From Candidatus Methanoperedens sp. (GTDB taxonomy: Archaea > Halobacteriota > Methanosarcinia > Methanosarcinales > Methanoperedenaceae), in the NCBI GenBank assembly GCA_027460525.1, contig JAPZAS010000036.1, forward strand, positions 1 to 64,000: 64,000 nt of DNA, written 5' to 3'. A program made the position numbers and the translations under genes. How positions within the stretch are numbered: position 1 is the stretch's first letter; every line of letters begins with the position of its first letter. Shown here in pieces: positions 49,426-56,644 of the stretch. The notes under the pieces were generated by a model. That model was not told the origin of the DNA and ran no database searches. It worked only from the letters and a program-made list of their open reading frames with translations.

Positions 49426-50310
49426 ATGAAGAAGGGTCGGATTTCAACTGGGATATATGGTCTTAATGACCTGATGGGCGGAGGCTTTCGAGAGAACACC
49501 ATCAATATTATCCGTGGAGGGACTGGCGTTGGGAAAACCACCTTTGCATTGCAGTATTCCCTTTTCGGTCTTGATCGAGGGGAAAAGGTGATATACGTTT
49601 CCTTTGAGATGTCGGAGGAACAAATTATCCGTGATTGCACGGACATGGGGTGGGGAGTTATCAAAGATTATATTGAAGACGGAAGTCTAAAAATAATCAA
49701 AGTTTTTGGAGAGAATCTTACTTTTCCATCGCTGGATATTGTGGAGATAGTTAAAAAATCGATAATTGCTTTAAACCCCAGAATAGTAATTGATCCCCTC
49801 ACCTATCTTACCTTTTATTCTGAGAAAGAGAAACGGAAATCCCTGAGCACAATCTTTCAAGAGCTGCGCAAACTGGGAACTGTCGTGATGGTGCTCGAAG
49901 AAGCTGTGGATGGAAACCAGGAAGGCTCTGCAATGCCATTGTATCTTTCAGATACCGTGATACATCTCCAGAACCTGGGTTTTGGTGAAATGTACGATAG
50001 AACATTGAGAATTATGAAGCATCGCGGTTCAAAACACGGAGAGGGGCTTTACCCATATTCCATAGAAAATGGTCTTGGAATTGTGCTCCATGCTTCTGAA
50101 AAACAAATAGAACGAGTGAAATCTAATACTAAATTCGATGAACAGTTTGAAGAGGCAATCGAAAAAACAAAATCTATGGGTGCATTGGGAGAAAAATTGT
50201 CAGCAAAGATAAAGGCTTTGCAGAGGAACTGGACGCATGATAACGATCCATCGCCAATTCTCAAGCTGGTTTTGGAAGAAGAGAAAAAAGGATATGGCAA
50301 AAGAAGTTGA
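49426..50310 (+). CDS. KaiC/Rad55-like RecA-superfamily ATPase
   Basis: A 294-residue single-domain KaiC-like ATPase. TGIYGLNDLMGGGFRENTINII leads to a canonical Walker A, GGTGVGKTT (residues 31-39), and Walker B is PRIVIDPLTYLTF. A paired carboxylate of KaiC type occurs at SFEMSEEQI. The C-terminal 60 residues are helical and may recruit partners. Such archaeal ATPases act in signalling or motility control. Its 3' end overlaps the roadblock gene by 17 bp. A TATA-like ctataaataa near 49369-49378 precedes it. Confidence 0.85.
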   Translation: MKKGRISTGIYGLNDLMGGGFRENTINIIRGGTGVGKTTFALQYSLFGLDRGEKVIYVSFEMSEEQIIRDCTDMGWGVIKDYIEDGSLKIIKVFGENLTFPSLDIVEIVKKSIIALNPRIVIDPLTYLTFYSEKEKRKSLSTIFQELRKLGTVVMVLEEAVDGNQEGSAMPLYLSDTVIHLQNLGFGEMYDRTLRIMKHRGSKHGEGLYPYSIENGLGIVLHASEKQIERVKSNTKFDEQFEEAIEKTKSMGALGEKLSAKIKALQRNWTHDNDPSPILKLVLEEEKKGYGKRS

Positions 50311-50647
50311 AGAAACTCTTGATGGGCTTTATGAAATCGAAGGGGTCGAGGCATGTATACTCTACAGAATAGACGGCATGCCCATATCCATCAGAACCCC
50401 GGGATACAGAGAGCATCTCTTGAAGACCATGTTCTGGCTTGAGAAGCAGATCGGGCATGTGCTCGGGCAGATGAACCGAGAGGGGCTCCAGGAGACCATT
50501 TTTTATTTCAGGAATAACAGGATTCTGATCGCTCCTTCCTCGAAGTCCACTGTGCTGGTTACGATTGCTGAGGCGGAGGCGAACCAGCAGCTTATTTCAC
50601 TGGAAACGCTTCGGGCGACCAAGATTATTGAGGAATGTGTGGCTTAA
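50294..50647 (+). CDS. Roadblock/LC7-domain protein
   Basis: A 117-residue roadblock protein (EVEETLDGLYEIEGVEACILYRIDGMPIS ... GLQETIFYFRNNRILIAPSSKSTVLVTIAEAEANQQ). These dimeric proteins bind and regulate small GTPases or scaffold signalling complexes. The ATG at 50294 has aaaagg upstream and starts inside the KaiC gene (17-bp overlap); an in-frame ATG at 50237 is rejected because it adds a basic segment not seen in the family. It probably partners the KaiC-like ATPase. Confidence 0.88.
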   Translation: MAKEVEETLDGLYEIEGVEACILYRIDGMPISIRTPGYREHLLKTMFWLEKQIGHVLGQMNREGLQETIFYFRNNRILIAPSSKSTVLVTIAEAEANQQLISLETLRATKIIEECVA

Positions 50648-50858: not shown

Positions 50859-52232
50859 ATGAAATCAGTTACTCTTTTCAGTAATAAGAAGGACTATAAG
50901 CAGGCTGCAAATGAAATCGTCGAGCTGGCTCATGAACGTTTGGATTTTAAGCCCGACCTTATTTTATTCTATGCCACGTTAAAGTACAATGGCAAATACC
51001 AGACAATGCTGGATATATTCCATGAGGAGTACGGCGACATACCGCAAATCGGCGCCTCAGTTGATGGGATGATTTATCCCGACGACATGAGGATGGACGG
51101 TGCTGCGTTGGTGCTGTGCAAGGACAAAGATGCAAAGGTACGCGTGGATGGGGTTAGAGAAAAAGGCGCAATCGAATCTGCGGAAAAGCTTGCAAAAAGA
51201 GTGAAATGTGAGACGGGTGCTGTTGTGCTTCATTTCCCTCTGGTGCATGTGCCTGGGGCGCTCAAGTCTGCGGAGTTTTATGCTAAGGGTTATTATTATA
51301 GTAAGATGTGCAAAGGAACGAGTCAGGGAAAACAGAAAGAATATGCTGGGAAATTTGCCGATTACTGCAATAAAGAAAATATCTTCTACCTGCCTCCCAC
51401 GGTGTTAAGCATATTCGCAAAGCATACGGGTTACAAAGTCCCTATCATAGGCATAAACGTGATGCATACGCAGGTAAGATTTGACTCCCCACATATATTC
51501 TGCAATTTCGAGGATATTGACGGGGGCATTGCGGCACTGACGGTAGAGAAAAATAATATAAATGCTGTTTATGATGATATATTTCCTGAGAAGGGAAGTA
51601 CGTTTGAAGAAACGAAAGATATAGTACGAAAAAAATTCACAATATTGAAAGAATTTAAAGCAAGTTTTGAGAAAAGTGTGTTAATTTCGCTGGACGGGGT
51701 GCCGCCGATGAACGCTGTGAAAAATCTGACAGCAGTATCCACGAAAAAAGAAGACGATTTATTAACGCAAATGGGCAAAGGAGACTTTCAAGTTCAGACA
51801 CCATACATGCTAATATTCTTTACCAAAAAACCAAAAGGAGTGGTTCTTGTGGGTGCCGGCTCTTATTATCCTTTTGATCTTTACCCATTTTTTATCAATG
51901 TTTCAGATTACTATGACGATGTATTCCTCGGATACGAATTTATAGATTTTAAGTCCAATGACTTTATATCCAGTTTGAGGCATCTCAGGCAAAATGGTGA
52001 TTTCAAATTCTTCTGTATAGATGTTGGAACAATCTCAGCTTTTGGAGAGAAAATTTTTAGTTATAAGGATGAAGTAAAAAAATTGGCAAAGGAAAATTAT
52101 TTTGGTATAATAACCGAAGCTCCTTCTGTATACCTTCCAAACGGGATGAAAAAAAGGAATTATATTTCTGAAGCAGAAGACAACATCTTCTTCACATCTG
52201 CTGGAACAAATGTTTGTTTAGAGATTAACTGA
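50859..52232 (+). CDS. FIST-domain-like sensory protein
   Basis: A 457-residue soluble protein. The N-terminal third fits a FIST_N pattern: FKPDLILFYATLKYNGKYQTMLD, then IPQIGASVDGMIYPDDMRMDGAALVL, where FIST proteins have a GxST/GE-type loop. The remainder would hold FIST_C-like strands (TPYMLIFFTKKPKGVVLVGAG). FIST domains sense small ligands, possibly amino acids, in signalling systems. It stands 211 bp after the KaiC-roadblock pair, with a TATA-like tatatatatt near 50772. The 3' half is AT-richer. Family call is moderate. Confidence 0.55.
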   Translation: MKSVTLFSNKKDYKQAANEIVELAHERLDFKPDLILFYATLKYNGKYQTMLDIFHEEYGDIPQIGASVDGMIYPDDMRMDGAALVLCKDKDAKVRVDGVREKGAIESAEKLAKRVKCETGAVVLHFPLVHVPGALKSAEFYAKGYYYSKMCKGTSQGKQKEYAGKFADYCNKENIFYLPPTVLSIFAKHTGYKVPIIGINVMHTQVRFDSPHIFCNFEDIDGGIAALTVEKNNINAVYDDIFPEKGSTFEETKDIVRKKFTILKEFKASFEKSVLISLDGVPPMNAVKNLTAVSTKKEDDLLTQMGKGDFQVQTPYMLIFFTKKPKGVVLVGAGSYYPFDLYPFFINVSDYYDDVFLGYEFIDFKSNDFISSLRHLRQNGDFKFFCIDVGTISAFGEKIFSYKDEVKKLAKENYFGIITEAPSVYLPNGMKKRNYISEAEDNIFFTSAGTNVCLEIN

Positions 52233-53443: not shown

Positions 53444-53647
53444 ATGTCCAAATCAGGAGAAATCGCAGACAAAATTCTTGCAGAACTTAGAGAAGGAAAA
53501 AAGATTAGTGTAAATGAACTTGGAAAAAAAGTACCATTAACAAATAAGATAATTCTCGATCTTCTGAAAGAGTGCGGGCTTATTGAGTTGAAAAACGGAG
53601 AGGTCAGAATAACGGAGTTCGGCTCTGAATTGCTTACTTTAGAATGA
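53444..53647 (+). CDS. Small winged-helix DNA-binding protein
   Basis: A 67-residue protein made of a single winged helix: EIADKILAELREGKKISVNELGKKVPLTNKIILDLLKECGLIELKNGEVRITEFGSELL. The recognition helix is around LTNKIILDLLKECG. No other domain. Its 3' end overlaps the convergent gene at 53634-53861 by 14 bp; both encode small winged helices. A TATA-like tatttatacc at 53411-53420 lies about 25 bp before the ATG, suggesting a leaderless transcript. Confidence 0.7.
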   Translation: MSKSGEIADKILAELREGKKISVNELGKKVPLTNKIILDLLKECGLIELKNGEVRITEFGSELLTLE

Positions 53648-53861
53648 CTTCTTTAGCTTTATTTAAAAATATTTTTCCTTTTTCTGTTGTTGTATATTTA
53701 TCCGACTCATTCTCTATAAGACCATGCTTTTGCAGCAGCGCTAGATATTTGTCAGCAAGCTTAAAATTAAGGTTTGCTTTATAGACAATGCTCGTTTTAT
53801 TAACACTCGCAATAGCAATATCCAGAATGTCAACAATAATATCTAGACTGTTTCTTCGCAT
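53634..53861 (-). CDS. Small winged-helix DNA-binding protein (ArnR/PadR-like size)
   Basis: A 75-residue winged helix: RNSLDIIVDILDIAIASVNKTSIVYKANLNFKLADKYLALLQKHGLIENESDKYTTTEKGKIFLNKAKEVI. The pattern I-x-DIL...TxIVYKANLNFKxxxxYLxxLxxxGLI...YxxTxKGxxFL is that of a common archaeal family of minimal regulators. It overlaps the convergent winged-helix gene by 14 bp and is divergent from the signalling operon at 54150, 288 bp away, so it could regulate that operon. Confidence 0.75.
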   Translation of the reverse strand: MRRNSLDIIVDILDIAIASVNKTSIVYKANLNFKLADKYLALLQKHGLIENESDKYTTTEKGKIFLNKAKEVILK

Positions 53862-54149: not shown

Positions 54150-54854
54150 ATGAGTGACTATACACTTGGCATCAAGGAACTGGATGAAGCAATCGGTGGC
54201 ATAAAGAAAGGCTCGAATATCATGTTTATCGGCCCTCCGATGAGCGGAAAAGAAGCCATCCTGAACTACATAGTGTATCACGGCGCTACAAAAAATGAAA
54301 ATGCAATAATAACAGTAACCACGCGCGAATCCGCAACCCACATCCTGGACTGGTTCAAAGAAAACAAGTTAGCCCTTCCCATGTCAAGAATCGGGATAGT
54401 TGACTGCGTTACAAAAACGCTTGGCGGCGCTGCGGTTGATAGTGAAAACATTAAAATCGCAAGCAGTCCGGTTGATTTAACTGGAATCGGGGTAAAAATC
54501 AGCCAGTTTTTTGAGGAATTCTTTATGAAAAAGAATACCCGAAAGATCCAGCTTCATATCAATTCGCTTTCTACAATATTGATGTATTCAAACATTCAAA
54601 CTGTTTTCAGGTTTCTCCATGTATTTACAGGACGCATTAAAGCAGCCGGGGCTATTGGAATATATGTGATAGAGAGCGGTATGCATGACGCGCAGGCGAT
54701 AGCAACCTTAAAACAGTTATTTGATGGCATGATAGAGATAAAATCTGAGAACGATAAGAATCTCATAAGGATTGCCGGGCTATCCTCAAAACCCACCCCC
54801 TGGTTTGAATACGAGATTGAGGGAGCTAGTGTCAAGATATTGAGGGGAAAATAA
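54150..54854 (+). CDS. Rad55/KaiC-like ATPase with altered P-loop (operon gene 1)
   Basis: A 234-residue RecA-superfamily protein (TLGIKELDEAIGGIKKGSNIMFIG). Its Walker A reads GPPMSGKEAI (residues 28-37), with glutamate where serine or threonine normally binds the magnesium ion. The remainder keeps the fold (AIITVTTRESATHILDWFKE, LQLHINSLSTILMYSNIQT), but the usual Walker B acidic residue is replaced by HINSLS. It may bind nucleotide without ordinary hydrolysis. It is followed one base later by the RecA/GTPase fusion gene. Confidence 0.8.
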   Translation: MSDYTLGIKELDEAIGGIKKGSNIMFIGPPMSGKEAILNYIVYHGATKNENAIITVTTRESATHILDWFKENKLALPMSRIGIVDCVTKTLGGAAVDSENIKIASSPVDLTGIGVKISQFFEEFFMKKNTRKIQLHINSLSTILMYSNIQTVFRFLHVFTGRIKAAGAIGIYVIESGMHDAQAIATLKQLFDGMIEIKSENDKNLIRIAGLSSKPTPWFEYEIEGASVKILRGK

Positions 54855-54855
54855 C

Positions 54856-56025
54856 ATGGTAGAAACCGGGATACCAAAATTGGATGAATTCCTCGGTGGG
54901 GGTATACCTAAAGGCAAGAGTCTTGTATATTGTAATCAACCTGGCGTTGAAGGCGAGATTTTTGGGCTGCAAACTATTTATAGTAATCTAAAAAACGGCG
55001 GTACCGGTGTTTTCGTAGTATCGAGTACCATGCCCGAAATTATGAAGGGTCAATTTAAGGAGTTCGGTTGGGATATCACTCCATTTAATGAGAGGCTGTT
55101 TTTTGTCGATGCTTATAATCCTTTAATAGGGGCACCTTCTAAAGAAAAATATGTTATTTCAAGTCCAGACAACATCGACAATTTCAGTAAGATAATAATA
55201 GATGTAATGCAAGAATTGCCGCCAAGCACTATAGTATTCGGTTCCCTATCCACCATAATGGATTTATGCGGAGAGAAGGAAACTATCGAGGCTGTAAAGT
55301 CTTGGAACAAAATGGCAATGCTGTACGACCATGTCATTGTTTATAATTTCACTGCATGGCCATATTCTCAGGAAACCCTGAACTTAATAAAAGGAGATTT
55401 ATTCAATGCCGTCATATCTATCGGTGGCATAGCTGAACGTGTCATCTTCGGTCAGTATTTCGGGATACTCAGGTCAGACTGGGTAAATGAAACAAAGAAA
55501 TCCATGCTTTTCAGGGTATTGCGCCCCGGAGGAATAAAATTATACATACCAAAGATACTTGTGACAGGACCTTTTGATGCCGGGAAATCCACGTTTGTGC
55601 ATGCCCTTTCAACACGTGCTATATCCGTTGACAGGCTGGGGACAACAATCGCCATGGACCATGGTCATCTCGATTATAAAGGTTTCAGCGCAGATATTTT
55701 CGGAACGCCAGGACAGGAGAGGTTTGATCCAATCATAAAACTAATAAGCGGCGAATCTATGGGTGTTTTTCTTGTTGTGGATTCCACAAATCCAGCGGAT
55801 TTTGTTCGAGCAAAGCAGATGCTTGAGATTACAAAGTCCTATGGGCTGCCATATGTTGTGGTTGCAAATAAGCAGGATTCACCCGGTGCTCTTACGCCTG
55901 AAGAAATAAGAAAGCAGTTCAATTTGCCCGACGATGTTCCTGTCGTTCCAGCGGTTGCGAAGGATAAAATCGGCGTGTTTGAGGCATTTGAAGTCTTGAT
56001 AGAAAAAATAACGGGAGGAACTTGA
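54856..56025 (+). CDS. Fusion of a degenerate RecA/KaiC-like domain with a MglA/Arf-like small GTPase (operon gene 2)
   Basis: A 389-residue fusion. Residues 1-225 are Rad55/KaiC-like (TGIPKLDEFLGGGIPKGKSLVY), but the P-loop position reads CNQPGVEGEI, without the lysine. Residues 230-389 are a complete small GTPase: G1 GPFDAGKST (238-246), G3 DIFGTPGQERF (280-290) with Gln287 at the Ras-Gln61 position, G4 NKQD (338-341), and G5 VAK (367-369). It is nearest to MglA/Arf/SRbeta-type GTPases. Its stop shares a base with the roadblock gene. I know of no characterised protein of this architecture. Confidence 0.88.
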   Translation: MVETGIPKLDEFLGGGIPKGKSLVYCNQPGVEGEIFGLQTIYSNLKNGGTGVFVVSSTMPEIMKGQFKEFGWDITPFNERLFFVDAYNPLIGAPSKEKYVISSPDNIDNFSKIIIDVMQELPPSTIVFGSLSTIMDLCGEKETIEAVKSWNKMAMLYDHVIVYNFTAWPYSQETLNLIKGDLFNAVISIGGIAERVIFGQYFGILRSDWVNETKKSMLFRVLRPGGIKLYIPKILVTGPFDAGKSTFVHALSTRAISVDRLGTTIAMDHGHLDYKGFSADIFGTPGQERFDPIIKLISGESMGVFLVVDSTNPADFVRAKQMLEITKSYGLPYVVVANKQDSPGALTPEEIRKQFNLPDDVPVVPAVAKDKIGVFEAFEVLIEKITGGT

Positions 56026-56393
56026 TGCCTGATACTATTGATATGGTTGACAAACTGCTTGCAGACTTGAAGAATATCGGGGGAGTGGAAGCCTGTGCTG
56101 CCGCCAGTCGCGACGGGTTGCTTATTCGTGCCATTATGCAAAAAGAATTATTTGTAGATTCCCTGGCTGCAATGTCTGCTACCATACTCGGCGCTGCCGA
56201 GACTGCCACTACACATGTGGAAAAAGGGGTGCCCAATCGGGTTATTGTGGAAACCGATTACGGAAGATTAGTTGTTATTGGCGCAGGGCCCAAAGCACTG
56301 CTGATTCTTCTTGCAAGTCAGGATACTGGACTGGGTTTAATCCTTCTGGAACTTGAAAAATCGGCAAAAAAGCTCAAAGATATATTGGCATGA
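56025..56393 (+). CDS. Roadblock/LC7 (MglB-like) protein (operon gene 3)
   Basis: A 122-residue roadblock domain: MVDKLLADLKNIGGVEACAAASRDGLLIRA, SLAAMSATILGAAETATTHVEKG, RVIVETDYGRLVVIGAGPKALLILLASQDTGLGLI. It is close in pattern to MglB-type proteins that activate MglA GTPases. Its ATG (ggagg six bases upstream) overlaps the GTPase-fusion stop as TGATG; a TTG three bases upstream is less likely. It overlaps yhbY by 4 bp, tying the signalling genes to a ribosomal-protein operon. Confidence 0.9.
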   Translation: MPDTIDMVDKLLADLKNIGGVEACAAASRDGLLIRAIMQKELFVDSLAAMSATILGAAETATTHVEKGVPNRVIVETDYGRLVVIGAGPKALLILLASQDTGLGLILLELEKSAKKLKDILA

Positions 56394-56644
56394 ACAAACA
56401 AAAAAGCAAGGCAGAGGGTACTTCTCTTGACGCTACTATTCATGTCGGTAAATCAGGCATAGAGCCTGTGGTTGAAGAGCTAAAAAACCAGTTGAAGATT
56501 AAGGAGATGGTGAAAGTAAAATTCCTCAAAACCGCCATTATTGAAATTGGGAAACATGAGCTTTCAGAAAAACTTGCAAACCTTACAGATTCGGAACTTA
56601 TTGAGGTCAGGGGAAATACTGCAGTATTTCGCCGAAAAAGGTAA
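56390..56644 (+). CDS. YhbY/CRM-family RNA-binding protein
   Basis: An 84-residue KH-like CRM domain. DATIHVGKSGIEPVVEELKNQLK has the G-K-x-G loop, then EMVKVKFLKTA, and LTDSELIEVRGNTAVFRRKR with the conserved RGN...RRK end. YhbY-type proteins bind pre-50S particles in ribosome assembly. In archaea the gene usually precedes rps19e, as it does here (57 bp). It starts inside the roadblock gene's last codons (ATGA). Confidence 0.9.
   Translation: MNKQKSKAEGTSLDATIHVGKSGIEPVVEELKNQLKIKEMVKVKFLKTAIIEIGKHELSEKLANLTDSELIEVRGNTAVFRRKR

Follow-up and report, generated by a model that had tools for sequence, protein, structure and literature searches.

A three-gene cassette in a Methanoperedens genome

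The window analysed here is a 64,000-nucleotide stretch of a Candidatus Methanoperedens sp. contig, and its host genome, 2.44 Mb in size, belongs to the Methanoperedens group and has named relatives at 81-88% identity. At positions 54150-56393 it carries a single locus of three tightly packed genes, as called from open reading frames and Pfam matches. Gene 1 (54150..54854, + strand) encodes a 234-residue KaiC-like protein of the DUF7504 type. After a gap of one base follows gene 2 (54856..56025, +), whose 389-residue product joins a KaiC/RecA domain to a small GTPase. Gene 3 (56025..56393, +) encodes a roadblock/LC7 protein of 122 residues when read from the ATG at 56025, which overlaps the TGA of gene 2 by one base; a TTG in the same frame lies at 56022. 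A preliminary description, made from the letters of the sequence, had proposed three genes joined by overlaps or a one-base gap. The open reading frames bear out this layout, and the motifs on which the description relied are all present: GPPMSGKE in gene 1, and CNQPGVEGEI, GPFDAGKST, GTPGQERF and NKQD in gene 2.

A fourth gene, absent from that description, starts within the end of gene 3. This YhbY/CRM-domain gene (56390..56644, +; open reading frame and Pfam) overlaps gene 3 by four bases and is followed by S19e-like and then PDCD5-like genes, both named by eye from their sequence. The YhbY/CRM gene is likely co-transcribed with the cassette and lies outside the switch proper. No sensor gene was found beside the window's own cassette.

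Gene 2 joins a degenerate KaiC domain to an intact small GTPase

The N-terminal half of gene 2 (about residues 1-225; 54856..55530, +) adopts a predicted RecA-type KaiC fold. It matches Pfam KaiC (4.6e-19), and its best solved matches are the KaiC-like proteins PH0284 and PH0186. Modelled with AlphaFold2, gene 2 reached a mean pLDDT of 90 and a pTM of 0.82, with a pLDDT of about 95 in the KaiC domain, and the top fold match of the model was PH0284 (TM 0.86 by target). The P-loop of this domain is replaced by PGVEGE in the window, and the Walker-B aspartate is also lost. The RecA-type domain lacking its P-loop lysine that had been described is thus confirmed, with a second motif missing as well; the accompanying proposal that it is nucleotide-bound finds no support, as both nucleotide-binding motifs are gone. 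All 109 distinct fusions that we collected have lost the P-loop, and most copies, the window's included, have lost the Walker-B aspartate. The loop that stands in for the P-loop is itself conserved from order to order, mostly as PGVEG[D/E]. Judged by these motifs, the pseudo-KaiC state is general across the fusions, and the scaffold role suggested earlier for the domain gains support as that of a presumably non-hydrolysing partner.

Pseudo-KaiC domains of the gene 2 type were also seen apart from the GTPase. One is joined to a weak carbon-nitrogen hydrolase (nitrilase-like) match (L075, 8045-9697), and stand-alone copies occur in Methanoperedens loci L076-L079.

The C-terminal half of gene 2 (about residues 226-389; 55531..56025, +) is a small GTPase domain of the MglA type. 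It matches the Pfam Arf/Ras families at 1.6e-11 to 8e-10, with Arf at 1.6e-11, and NCBIfam small_GTP at 9.4e-15; its best solved matches are Arf, Rab and MglA GTPases. The motifs GPFDAGKST, GTT (the TT lying in G2), GTPGQERF and NKQD are intact, which together with the Pfam matches confirms the complete small GTPase reported before. Across the 109 fusions GK[S/T] is kept, accompanied mostly by GTPGQ (97 of the 108 fused copies counted) and NKxD. The domain has GTPGQ in G3 and threonine, not arginine, in G2, as in MglA Groups 2-5 (PMC4316618). It departs from the stand-alone, single-domain form of MglA-type GTPases, however, in that all members of its clade are fused to a pseudo-KaiC domain. 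In the phylogenetic tree all fused GTPase domains group in one clade (support 99/96), with the stand-alone relatives from archaea and bacteria outside it, and a single fusion event is therefore likely. Roadblock genes also accompany the four bacterial GTPase relatives that were examined.

The cassette is conserved across Halobacteriota

The search for the fusion covered Halobacteriota genomes and plasmids. Within the class, 73 of 238 genomes have it. They include almost every genome of the window's genus, the majority in two further families of the order (f3 and f4) and a few elsewhere; in the large family f5 it is confined to genera g14 and g27. Methanosarcina-type relatives have neither fusion nor roadblock. 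The fusion was also found in family f10, which we take to be Archaeoglobaceae, in f15, taken here as Methanocellaceae, and in f17, f20 and f27, presumably Methanomicrobiales, at about 30-34% identity. On plasmids, all the GTPases retrieved lacked the KaiC half, and gene 3 had no match. We considered the fusion as a marker of anaerobic methane oxidisers and rejected the idea, given its occurrence in these presumed Archaeoglobaceae, Methanocellaceae and Methanomicrobiales.

The order gene 1-gene 2-gene 3 accompanies 71 of the 109 fusion genes. Eight show the reversed order gene 3-gene 2-gene 1 and belong to a paralogous cassette that is about 40% identical; the roadblock gene lies upstream of gene 2 in two cases, and downstream without a visible gene 1 in three. 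A further 24 consist of gene 1 and gene 2 without a visible roadblock, comprising 20 Methanomicrobiales loci, three Methanoperedens second copies and one locus at a contig end. In the remaining one, L116, the roadblock is part of the fusion protein itself. The preliminary description had staked its reading on conserved linkage, and the three genes do stay together in relatives across Halobacteriota. Linkage to YhbY is kept in Methanoperedenaceae, as it is in several further families of that order, and was not seen in the Archaeoglobaceae or Methanomicrobiales loci examined. Nearly all Methanoperedenaceae loci, and some of another family, have the S19e-like and PDCD5-like genes together with YhbY behind gene 3.

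Gene 1 is degenerate in some lineages

Gene 1 matches Pfam DUF7504 (2e-26) and KaiC (1.5e-7), so that its earlier label of Rad55-like was a loose one, while the altered P-loop noted with it stands. In the window the P-loop reads GPPMSGKE and the Walker-B aspartate is replaced by asparagine (INSLST), leaving neither Walker A (GKE) nor Walker B (INS) intact. A gene 1 homologue adjoins 106 of the 109 fusion genes, and at least one of the remaining three is at a contig edge. Methanosarcinales copies mostly have GKE or GKD, with asparagine in place of the Walker-B aspartate, and Methanomicrobiales copies have lost the P-loop lysine. Among the Archaeoglobaceae and reversed-paralogue copies examined, most have GKS and all have the Walker-B aspartate. 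Gene 1 thus appears degenerate in some lineages only, unlike the generally dead KaiC domain of gene 2. Because these residues are kept in the Archaeoglobaceae and reversed-paralogue copies, the protein may be a working ATPase there. We also noticed a Methanocellaceae cassette (L114, 6274-7935) that contains the fusion and roadblock genes, with gene 1 not detectable.

The roadblock protein is probably paired with the fusion

Gene 3 had been read as a roadblock protein, an assignment that holds with a Pfam Robl_LC7 match of 3.7e-11 and PDB roadblock matches of 1.3e-16 and 1.7e-15; its sequence match to MglB is weak (E 0.6). The protein carries an Arg-Asp-Gly motif. It thus combines a Robl_LC7 domain, the Asp-Gly pair and a gene coupled to that of the GTPase, like the roadblock partners of Groups 2-5.

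In one Methanocellaceae genome the pseudo-KaiC domain, GTPase and roadblock form a single protein of 523 residues (L116; Robl_LC7 7.7e-13), which is predicted to fold confidently as one chain (pLDDT 88.5, pTM 0.83). For the alignment behind this model only, genes 2 and 3 were joined across the stop codon where the two lie in frame. Fusion and roadblock occur together in 73 of the 238 class genomes, the fusion alone in none, a roadblock alone in 5 and neither in 160, a count uncorrected for shared ancestry. Each of the 15 Archaeoglobaceae genomes with the fusion has exactly one roadblock match, adjoining the fusion (15/15), and those without it have one roadblock or none. The system is at its simplest in this family, where a genome that carries it has a single fusion gene and a single roadblock gene. 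Since the two genes adjoin except in Methanomicrobiales and certain second copies, are naturally fused in L116, co-occur across the class and include the sole roadblock in 15/15 Archaeoglobaceae, the predicted pairing of the roadblock with the fusion GTPase is well supported. Where no roadblock adjoins, 8 of 23 copies have an altered GTPGQ motif, among them all three roadblock-less second copies of Methanoperedens; where one does, 3 of 85 copies have it (Fisher p = 1.5e-4, uncorrected for shared ancestry). The earlier suggestion of a roadblock-regulated small GTPase acting as a switch draws support from the conserved linkage and the intact motifs.

The pairing need not be exclusive. In the window's genome four roadblock genes pass the Pfam cut-off, and gene 2 is the single Arf-family match; therefore one switch may serve several roadblocks, the fusion being their shared target. 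Most fusion-bearing genomes of the class also encode several roadblocks, so the GTPase may have partners besides gene 3. No roadblock was detected in one fusion-bearing Methanomicrobiales genome (G436), which argues that a roadblock is not always needed.

A proposed G-protein switch on a KaiC scaffold

We consider it probable, from sequence and predicted structure, that the three genes specify an MglA/MglB-type (conservon-like) G-protein switch of archaea, with a KaiC scaffold and a roadblock regulator. The GTPase domain of gene 2 would be the switch. A homodimer of gene 3 would contact it and set its nucleotide state, most likely as a GTPase-activating protein (GAP) and possibly as an exchange factor; one or other of these activities is the most likely role for gene 3 because of its homology to the MglA/MglB and Mfp systems. 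The KaiC domain of gene 2, with its ATP-binding residues lost, would act as a scaffold or input domain that presents the GTPase. KaiC/RecA domains pack against each other, and this one probably pairs side by side with the gene 1 protein as a heteromer.

Input would arrive via other proteins, which is the direction of signalling that we infer. In four f3 loci the reversed paralogue has PAS-protein genes upstream; in the two loci scanned these are multi-PAS genes, and in one case a further PAS gene, which has a STAS match, comes next. Small proteins take the place of the PAS genes in the f4 loci, and the two scanned had no Pfam match. The PAS/STAS proteins are probably sensors that feed the paralogous cassette. 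More tentatively, a pseudo-KaiC/KaiC heteromer might relay sensory input to the attached Ras-like GTPase, in a separate and ancient archaeal class of switch on which several roadblocks act. If so, a KaiC heteromer, and not a kinase or receptor, would be the relay in this class of archaeal G-protein signalling.

Relation to known systems

Like MglA/MglB of Myxococcus and Thermus, the cassette sets a small GTPase of the MglA kind beside a roadblock protein, and it shares with Groups 2-5 the GTPGQ motif, the G2 threonine and the roadblock Asp-Gly pair. It differs in the N-terminal pseudo-KaiC domain of the GTPase and in the companion KaiC-like gene 1. An archaeal group of MglA-type GTPases, mainly from methanogens, has been described as being without conserved neighbours (PMC4316618). 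The actinobacterial conservons (CvnA-D; Mfp) likewise contain a GTPase-roadblock operon, and sensor-like genes lie upstream in the paralogue of the cassette; in the mycobacterial system the roadblock MfpD is reported to act as a GAP on its GTPase, MfpB (PMC13343842). However, neither DUF742 (CvnC) nor a histidine kinase (CvnA) was found among the window-locus proteins scanned, and, unlike conservons, the cassette includes KaiC-like proteins, with its fused GTPases in a separate clade.

According to PMC5847659, which cites Makarova 2017, archaeal KaiC-like hubs include an inactivated iKaiC joined to signalling domains. The fusion resembles these proteins in linking an inactivated KaiC domain to a signalling domain and differs in that its partner is a small GTPase. 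Asgard archaea have small GTPases and roadblock proteins, and some of their small GTPases carry a roadblock, a longin or another additional domain (PMC10933270, in excerpt). In contrast to the cassette, the excerpt mentions no KaiC domain in these GTPases, and their cores resemble eukaryotic Rab/Rag. Our literature search found neither the fusion nor the cassette described; Makarova 2017 lies outside that search and may list the fusion.

Both halves of the system are of known kinds, namely GTPases under roadblock control and inactivated KaiC domains attached to signalling domains. To our knowledge, Ras-like switches are seldom discussed for non-Asgard archaea, and the proposal that KaiC proteins serve archaea as signalling hubs has come without a well-defined mechanism of output. 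The cassette would give a KaiC-type hub both a defined output, the GTPase, and a defined regulator, the roadblock.

Alternative readings

The roles of the two halves of gene 2 could be exchanged, with the KaiC half as the true effector, for example binding a ligand or partner via the PGVEG loop, and the GTPase and roadblock gating it. The conservation of that loop across orders and the stand-alone or nitrilase-linked pseudo-KaiC domains of Methanoperedens favour this arrangement, but no ligand or effector is known, and we regard it as unlikely. A regulator of polarity or motility, functionally analogous to MglA/MglB and positioning the type IV pilus or archaellum machinery, strikes us as improbable. 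The GTPase and roadblock are of the right kind for it, and archaeal pilus loci repeatedly have KaiC-like ATPases and roadblock proteins in their vicinity (PMC4858521). However, pilus genes were not recognised in the cassette loci examined, and T2SSE pilus/archaellum ATPases are present in 24/24 genomes tested, with or without the fusion, so that their presence is uninformative either way.

The tight packing with the YhbY, S19e-like and PDCD5-like genes, including the four-base overlap, could mean that the cassette senses or tunes ribosome assembly, and Methanomicrobiales cassettes adjoin an apparent diphthine synthase gene (identified from the start of its sequence). Yet the ribosomal linkage is lineage-limited, being absent in the examined Archaeoglobaceae locus and in the PAS-linked paralogue, and unrelated neighbours are often packed in strings of short archaeal genes; we give such a translation-linked role little credence. 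The clock-like role in the preliminary description found no support, and we dropped it, having found nothing in its favour. A KaiC-type device for timing or phosphorylation, built as a mixed ring of gene 1 and the KaiC half of gene 2 that turns over ATP in cycles, is hardly credible. It would account for the KaiC fold and for the nucleotide-binding residues that gene 1 keeps in some lineages, but every homologue of gene 2 has a dead KaiC domain, degenerate copies of gene 1 mark Methanosarcinales (the window included) and Methanomicrobiales, the KaiC domains are single, and KaiA and KaiB were not recognised in the loci examined.

Neighbouring and related loci

Several other loci with roadblock genes were noticed. 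A second signalling locus (L181, 4675-9763, on contig C32 of G000, outside the window) is kept in another family (L183, 4768-10001). It comprises a roadblock gene, a two-domain KaiC ATPase with its first P-loop intact, two small probable membrane proteins, a HAMP/PAS histidine kinase and a response regulator. A roadblock gene adjoins or lies near a proteasome-type (PAN-like) AAA ATPase in two families (L180, 4149-5835, G000 contig C34; L185, 2263-4368), and another is beside a YGR210-like Obg-family GTPase gene (L182, 3-1480, G000 contig C23).

Within the window, 3.5 kb upstream of the cassette, a divergent roadblock-like protein (50237-50647; E 0.03, below the cut-off) is followed by a FIST-domain protein (50859-52232); among the loci examined both occur only in the close relative L031. 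Nearer to the cassette, two small winged-helix genes (53444-53647, +; 53634-53861, -) overlap tail to tail, one of them clearly of the Sso10a chromatin protein family.
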